This document shows positions 2,299 to 37,152 of a stretch of DNA of 44,859 bases, one piece after another. The notes under the pieces were generated by a model. The model saw only the letters and a list, made by a program, of their open reading frames with translations. It did no database searches and had not been told where the DNA came from. This DNA is from Magnetococcales bacterium (GTDB taxonomy: Bacteria > Pseudomonadota > Magnetococcia > Magnetococcales > JADGAP01). The stretch spans positions 1 through 44,859 of the forward strand of contig JADGAP010000007.1 of the NCBI GenBank assembly GCA_015231965.1, given 5' to 3'. The translations under genes and the position numbers were made by a program. Numbering within the stretch: the first letter of the stretch is position 1; every line of letters begins with the position of its first letter.

Positions 2299-2372
2299 GT
2301 GGGCTGGCGGGTTGTCCTTATCGTTCCAATCCAGTTTTGCACATCACGAAATGACCCCAAAGGTCGGGTTCT

Positions 2373-2567
2373 GTGAAAATATGGTCGCCTCCGGCGACGA
2401 TTGGGCGCGCTGCGCCGAAGCAAAAGACGCTTCGGCTTCACTTGAAAGCGCGCCTAAAAAACTGCAAAGTCAAAAGCGAAAGTCAAAACCGTAGGGCTCT
2501 GCCCCCCGCCTTCGCGGGGGCAGGCTCTACAACCCGCCAGGGCAATGATTGCTCTGGACCCGCAGTC
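2373..2567 (+). repeat. Multi-hairpin interspersed repeat, copy A
   Basis: About 195 bp matching the reverse complement of 36779-36982; contains GTCGCC/GGCGAC, GGCGCGC/GCGCGCC enclosing GCCGAAGC/GCTTCGGC, CCCCCGC/GCGGGGG and CCAGGGCAA/TTGCTCTGG stems. Confidence 0.85.
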
Positions 2568-34497: not shown

Positions 34498-34742
34498 CGT
34501 CATTCCCGCGAAAGCGGGAATCCAGCCTTTGTGTTTTTGAACCGCCGATCTTGCGTCCCAGATGAAATGGACAGACTTTCTTTCAAACATCGAAAGCCAA
34601 TCCATGGAGTTGTCGCTATTAACTTATTTATTTTATTTAGTATTATTTCCAACGATCCACGCTGTCGGCACTGGTTTTATCGTGGTGATGGGATAAGGCG
34701 CATGGAAACAACGGCTGGATTCCCGCTTTCGCGGGAATGACG
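34498..34742. mobile_element. MITE-like 245-bp element bounded by perfect 30-bp inverted repeats
   Basis: 34498-34527 cgtcattcccgcgaaagcgggaatccagcc is the exact reverse complement of 34713-34742; each arm is itself a hairpin. Confidence 0.75.
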
Positions 34743-36742: not shown

Positions 36743-36778
36743 GGGGGGGATATCGATTCAGCACCTCCCCGCTTTTTC

Positions 36779-36982
36779 GACTGCGGGTCCAGGGGGATCA
36801 TCCCCCTGGCGGGTCCAAAGCCTGCCCCCGCGAAGGCGGGGGGCGGAGCCCTGGGGTTTTGACTTTTGCTTTTGATCTTGCATTTGTTTTTGTTCTTTTG
36901 GCGCGCTTTCAAGAGAAGCGAATGCGCTTTTCAGCATTCGCGTAGCGCGCCCAATTGTCGCCGGAGGCGACCCTATTTTCAC
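36779..36982 (-). repeat. Multi-hairpin interspersed repeat, copy B
   Basis: Reverse complement aligns with 2373-2567 with compensatory changes in two stems. Confidence 0.85.
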
Positions 36983-37152
36983 CTAATTCCGGATTTCTCT
37001 CCAAAAAATGGGGGGCTGAATAGTTACCCGCCGTCTTGGATCGGGCCGCCCGCCGTTGCTCCCCGGGCGGATTCGTGATCATATGGTTCAGTTGAAATCA
37101 ACTCGAATGAGTCGGAAAACGGCGGCATCTCGCGAGGTTGGAAGGGTGTAGC

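Follow-up and report, generated by a model that had tools for sequence, protein, structure and literature searches.

REP and BIME elements are palindromes tagged with GTAG or CGTC (PMC3733652). The repeat family described here resembles them in being palindromic, mosaic and intergenic, in its preference for gene 3' ends and in the occasional formation of head-to-head pairs. However, it is much longer and carries inverted-repeat ends, we noticed no GTAG or CGTC tag in it and found no linked Y1 transposase, and its G-U pairs are rare, whereas for the stems of REPs PMC3733652 indicates G-T pairing. We do not claim REP/BIME membership for the family. Bacterial stem-loop sequence families (PMC2267715) are likewise repeated, intergenic and characterized by a shared predicted structure, but our family is set apart by its transposon-like ends and its strong covariation; the text of that survey does not mention this bacterial group. 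MITEs with IS66- or IS630/Tc1-type ends are short, apparently non-coding and dispersed in many intergenic copies, as is our family, whose terminal inverted repeats also match transposase-bearing elements, with 8-bp duplications at some of the copies that have one kind of end (type I below). Unlike MITEs, it combines a single structured interior, made up of swappable modules and several hairpins that covary, with at least two end types unrelated to each other. Template switching has been documented to introduce multiple compensatory changes in one step (PMC8794818), and the hairpins maintained by it display multi-base compensatory changes restoring Watson-Crick pairing, as do ours; those hairpins, however, lie in RNA genes, whereas the present ones lie in dispersed, mobile-looking repeats for which we infer template switching. 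We found no description of the family in a literature search that covered few of the subscription journals.

The window, a stretch of 44,859 nucleotides from a Magnetococcales bacterium (contig JADGAP010000007.1), contains two copies of the repeat, designated A and B, with the following features.

2322..2372 (extent approximate), forward strand: left flank of copy A, a decayed type II end (TATAGNNRTTCCAAT-like), read as TTATCGTTCCAATC
2373..2567, forward strand: core of copy A, with the modules in the same order as in copy B
2404..2454, forward strand: outer stem of copy A with the variable inner stem GCCGAAGC/GCTTCGGC
36750..36761 (approximate), reverse strand: opposite end of copy B, decayed type I (GCTGAATCGATA)
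36779..36982, reverse strand: core of copy B, GTGAAAAT...GGACCCGCAGTC, with hairpin P1, the outer stem, P3, P4 (CCCCCGC hairpin inserted) and P5
36900..36951, reverse strand: outer stem of copy B, GGCGCGC/GCGCGCC, around the variable inner stem GCGAATGC/GCATTCGC
36954..36968 (approximate), reverse strand: hairpin P1 of copy B, GTCGCC TCC GGCGAC
37015..37027, reverse strand: left end of copy B, type I terminal inverted repeat GTAACTATTCAGC

A sequence-only reading of the window had reported five stems in the same order in both copies, and the alignment of copy A (2373-2567, +) with copy B (36779-36982, -), which extends over the whole length, finds them as described. P1 (GTCGCC/GGCGAC), the outer stem GGCGCGC/GCGCGCC and the CCCCCGC/GCGGGGG hairpin are identical in A and B. 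The compensatory changes reported for the other two stems are genuine: the inner stem is GCCGAAGC/GCTTCGGC in copy A versus GCGAATGC/GCATTCGC in copy B, and the last stem CCAGGGCAA/TTGCTCTGG versus CCAGGGGGA/TCCCCCTGG. Both copies sit at the coordinates first given for them, but that extent is too short, as the repeat of copy B continues from a GTAACTATTCAGC end at 37027 to a GCTGAATCGATA end near 36750 (-). Copies A and B fold much more stably than shuffled sequence, with z = -6.6 and z = -3.7, respectively. Perfect hairpin arms total 22 bp in copy A and 30 bp in copy B; 200-mers sampled elsewhere in the window have 3.9 bp on average and 22 bp at most, and their 99th percentile is 17 bp. The end of copy A is overlapped by a TPR/methyltransferase ORF listed from 2545, for which an ATG at approximately 2620 seems the likelier start.

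On the strand of that reading (hereafter the described strand), the 5' part of the core consists of GTGAAAATCTGG, hairpin P1 and a short linker. The outer stem, GGCGCGCT/AGCGCGCC, comes next, with P3 as the inner stem and a short TTCACTTGAA stretch inside it, and is followed by an A-rich linker made of repeated units (e.g. AAAAGCGAAAGTC), the length of which varies by tandem units such as AAAAGATAAAATC or AAAAGCGAAAGTC in both the home genome (G000) and the relative G081. Hairpin P4 (CCAGGG/CCCTGG) is present with or without the inserted CCCCCGC/GCGGGGG hairpin, and the 3' part comprises hairpin P5 (CCAGGGGGA/TCCCCCTGG) and GGACCCGCAGTC. Where both ends are visible, the element measures approximately 250-300 bp. 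Relatives display the same plan with other stems; in G081, P1 is 17 bp long and its middle differs from copy to copy. An extra module of three hairpins (CGATTCGCCAGGACTGGCGAATCG...GGGCCAGGGATGGCCC) is nested at several positions in the core (loci L009, L015, L016, L019, L026, L027 and others), and its first two stems also vary while their pairing is kept. For the inserted module (CGATTCGCCAG...GGCCCGAATCA), copying of the target sequence into the module's own first stem was considered; this idea was dropped, since among 26 copies shared subfamily history seems to account for most of the match.

The family extends far beyond the two copies of the window. In the home genome (3.82 Mb, 314 contigs), copy B as the query matches 52 pieces, and copy A adds further places. 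After merging and removal of duplicates, the loci fetched contain 73 sequence instances, some of them partial, and we cautiously put the copy number at 60 or more; the initial description of a two-copy repeat was thus a considerable underestimate. An element from a relative has matches at E <= 1e-6 in 24 genomes out of the 48 examined in the class. Some relatives contain more than 70 matching pieces, with at least 72 in G081. All these counts, for the home genome as for relatives, are lower bounds, as the searches score limited numbers of candidates. Three Paenibacillus matches from a genome-wide pattern scan were discarded as chance occurrences: the sequence is similar in three species, forms no hairpins and is apparently coding.

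All 62 copies placed relative to genes are intergenic, none lying inside a gene predicted by a simple and rough hexamer-based gene finder. The copies are scattered among unrelated genes and have no fixed gene neighbour; the arrangement of the neighbouring genes is convergent in 13 cases, co-directional in 24 and divergent in 5. On the side of the GC hairpins, the neighbouring gene faces the element with its 3' end in 34 of 51 cases (p = 0.024), and on the opposite side in 28 of 51. We treat this 3'-end preference as supporting evidence only, given the rough gene finder and the four such tests that were run.

One core of approximately 200 bp is common to different transposon-like ends. Type I ends, GTAACTATTCAGC...GCTGAATAGTTAC, occur in copy B and others, and type II ends, TATAGYNRTTCCAAT and its inverse, occur in decayed form in copy A. 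The type I terminal inverted repeat GTAACTATTCAGC has 55 sites versus one in the reversed control, and the type II repeat TATARYNRTTCCAATY has 206 versus none. Hybrids exist as well, such as L007 with a type I left end and a type II right end, and suggest recombination in addition to transposition. Target duplications of 8 bp accompany three of the nine type I elements: the duplication is exact in L012 and in L113, the interior of which is related to the core but different, and matches at 7 of 8 bp in L005/L070, for which L130 provides a relative of the uninserted target sequence. The remaining six type I elements, copy B among them, have no target duplication. Transposase sequences are found between both kinds of ends. 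A 1.58-kb IS66-family element in G081 (L233) carries GTAACTATTCACCACCC at each end, that is, the type I ends, and a DDE_3 transposase fragment in the home genome (L280) is flanked by type II ends, the sequence of which resembles an IS630/Tc1 end. In the home genome we found only fragments of IS66 and IS630 elements and no complete element of either. Three of the features by which a MITE is recognized are present in the family: terminal inverted repeats, a target duplication (in some copies only) and a transposase-bearing element, the last assigned by family. Other, unrelated interiors, with GTCATTCCCGCGAAAGCGGGAAT hairpins, are also enclosed by type II ends. The window itself has a repeat of a second kind at 34499-34742, two inverted GTCATTCCCGCGAAAGCGGGAAT hairpins approximately 200 bp apart, which is similar to what type II ends enclose at other places in the genome. 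One 55-bp locus of the home genome (L118; contig C263, 4057-4111) contains nothing but a pair of type I ends around GCAGTCGCAAAAGC and is probably a deletion derivative.

The paired positions covary across the further copies. In 24 ungapped elements of G081, 98.7% of 792 cells are paired and 10 pairs vary on both sides, giving a covariation score of 0.197 versus 0.053 in shuffles; 24 copies from the home genome score 0.140 versus 0.050. None of 500 shuffles reaches the observed score in either alignment, and slid controls stay far below, at 0.043 at most. The shuffle results are not probabilities, as relatedness among copies persists in the shuffles, and the choice of rows, made by equal length or by an 8-bp inner stem free of inserts, is biased towards intact copies. 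Nearly all varied pairs are Watson-Crick, with G-U in only 1 of 792 cells in G081 and 2 of 528 in the home genome. P3 of the home genome has at least eight distinct arm sequences, and 322 of its 327 cells are Watson-Crick when the best-scoring stem is taken per copy. Two conserved unpaired motifs deviate from their consensus at 4-6% per site, compared with 1.5% broken cells in P3. In genome G113, breaks in the P1 stem are frequent (29 of 537 cells). A preference for G-U on the described strand was sought and turned out reversed: among distinct mismatched stems in 150 elements from six genomes, A·C is found in 23, G·T in 7 and other mismatches in 30. The excess of A·C over G·T has p = 0.005, with a lower true weight, as many stems share ancestry and most come from P1. 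A stricter stem finder, which takes in some flanking stems, gives 16 versus 3.

Covariation is the standard proof of functional RNA; here it is very strong, yet G-U is nearly missing and the element looks mobile. The sequence-only reading had proposed either a structured RNA or an undescribed repeat family, and the many further copies in the genome and in relatives, their covariation and the lack of an Rfam match favour the latter. A discrete structured non-coding RNA produced from the described strand would be expected to covary strongly and to fold beyond shuffles, as the repeat does. The near absence of G-U pairs and the prevalence of A·C over G·T, however, do not support RNA from this strand as the selected product. 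In addition, the window contains no Rfam match above the gathering score, a scan of the two copies found no promoter-like site, and the element has transposon-like ends and no constant gene neighbour; we give an RNA from this strand the least credence of all the explanations considered. The mismatch pattern is compatible with a role of the opposite strand, as RNA or as exposed single-stranded DNA, or with strand-biased mutation. For the opposite strand, transcripts of neighbouring genes would enter at the GC-hairpin side, the hairpins would act in the 3' UTR as terminator-like or stabilizing structures, and selection on RNA would keep them paired. The gene 3' ends facing the GC-hairpin side agree with such a role, and REPs have a comparable location at the 3' ends of genes (PMC3733652). 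What is an A·C mismatch on the described strand is G·U on the other, and a T-rich tract follows the GC hairpins in the reverse direction. Still, G-U is very rare on both strands, the excess of A·C is owed mostly to one stem and to shared ancestry and could be produced by strand-biased mutation, and the 3'-end preference depends on the rough gene finder. In an intrinsic-terminator scan of the two copies, the terminator-like matches (3 versus a shuffle mean of 1.4, and 3 versus 0.9) are near background. We consider such a reverse-strand RNA rather unlikely.

Movement of a REP/BIME-type element by a Y1 transposase (TnpA-REP/RAYT) acting on single-stranded hairpins would suit a multi-hairpin, intergenic repeat that forms head-to-head pairs in relatives, and both the home genome and its relatives encode Y1 transposase domains. 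A link to Y1/RAYT was nevertheless sought and not found: none of the loci examined around Y1 genes contains a copy of the core. Inverted-repeat ends with 8-bp duplications are of the DDE type, and we hold movement by Y1 to be very improbable. In genome G129, loci L163-L171 are long imperfect palindromes of two head-to-head halves, each ending in CTGGGGGATTGCCCCCAG and a T-rich tract.

We therefore regard it as probable, with some reserve, that the hairpin-rich core forms the inner part of a MITE/BIME-like mobile DNA repeat that is mosaic and non-autonomous, its palindromes being kept paired probably by template switching, by selection for hairpins or by both. Points against this reading are the six type I elements that have no target duplication, the finding of mere fragments of IS66 and IS630 elements in the home genome and the broken P1 stems of G113. 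Such a repeat would be assembled from exchangeable hairpin modules, as a MITE with a BIME-like inside. Transposases supplied elsewhere, of the IS66-family type for copy B and IS630/Tc1-like for copy A, would act on the terminal inverted repeats, and this action in trans would spread copies across intergenic sites. In the interior, conserved short motifs would alternate with palindromes, the arms of which drift yet stay complementary. Pairing would be kept at the DNA level: after a mutation in one arm, a replication template switch on the hairpin would copy one arm onto the other, which would yield Watson-Crick stems. Selection for hairpins that cause little damage near gene 3' ends possibly assists in this. 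Strong purifying selection on the hairpins would give a similar pattern, and both processes may act. Recombination-type maintenance of palindromes, suggested at the outset from the two copies, is among the proposals that hold best, the step by which pairing is restored being the conjectural part of it. More tentatively, and with some doubt on our side, the repeats may constitute a class-wide mobile family with hypervariable hairpins, both arms of which are rewritten together by hairpin-templated copying. If so, the element would acquire new stem sequences with perfect pairing retained, and covariation could arise in mobile DNA largely through a mutation mechanism. With dozens of copies per genome, the family offers a large natural data set on whether template switching at the DNA level can mimic selection on RNA structure.

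Many contigs of the home genome, G129 and G113 start or stop inside the repeats, a hint that assembly merged some copies and that their number is underestimated. The location of repeats at so many contig ends probably contributes to the strong fragmentation of the assemblies of this class.
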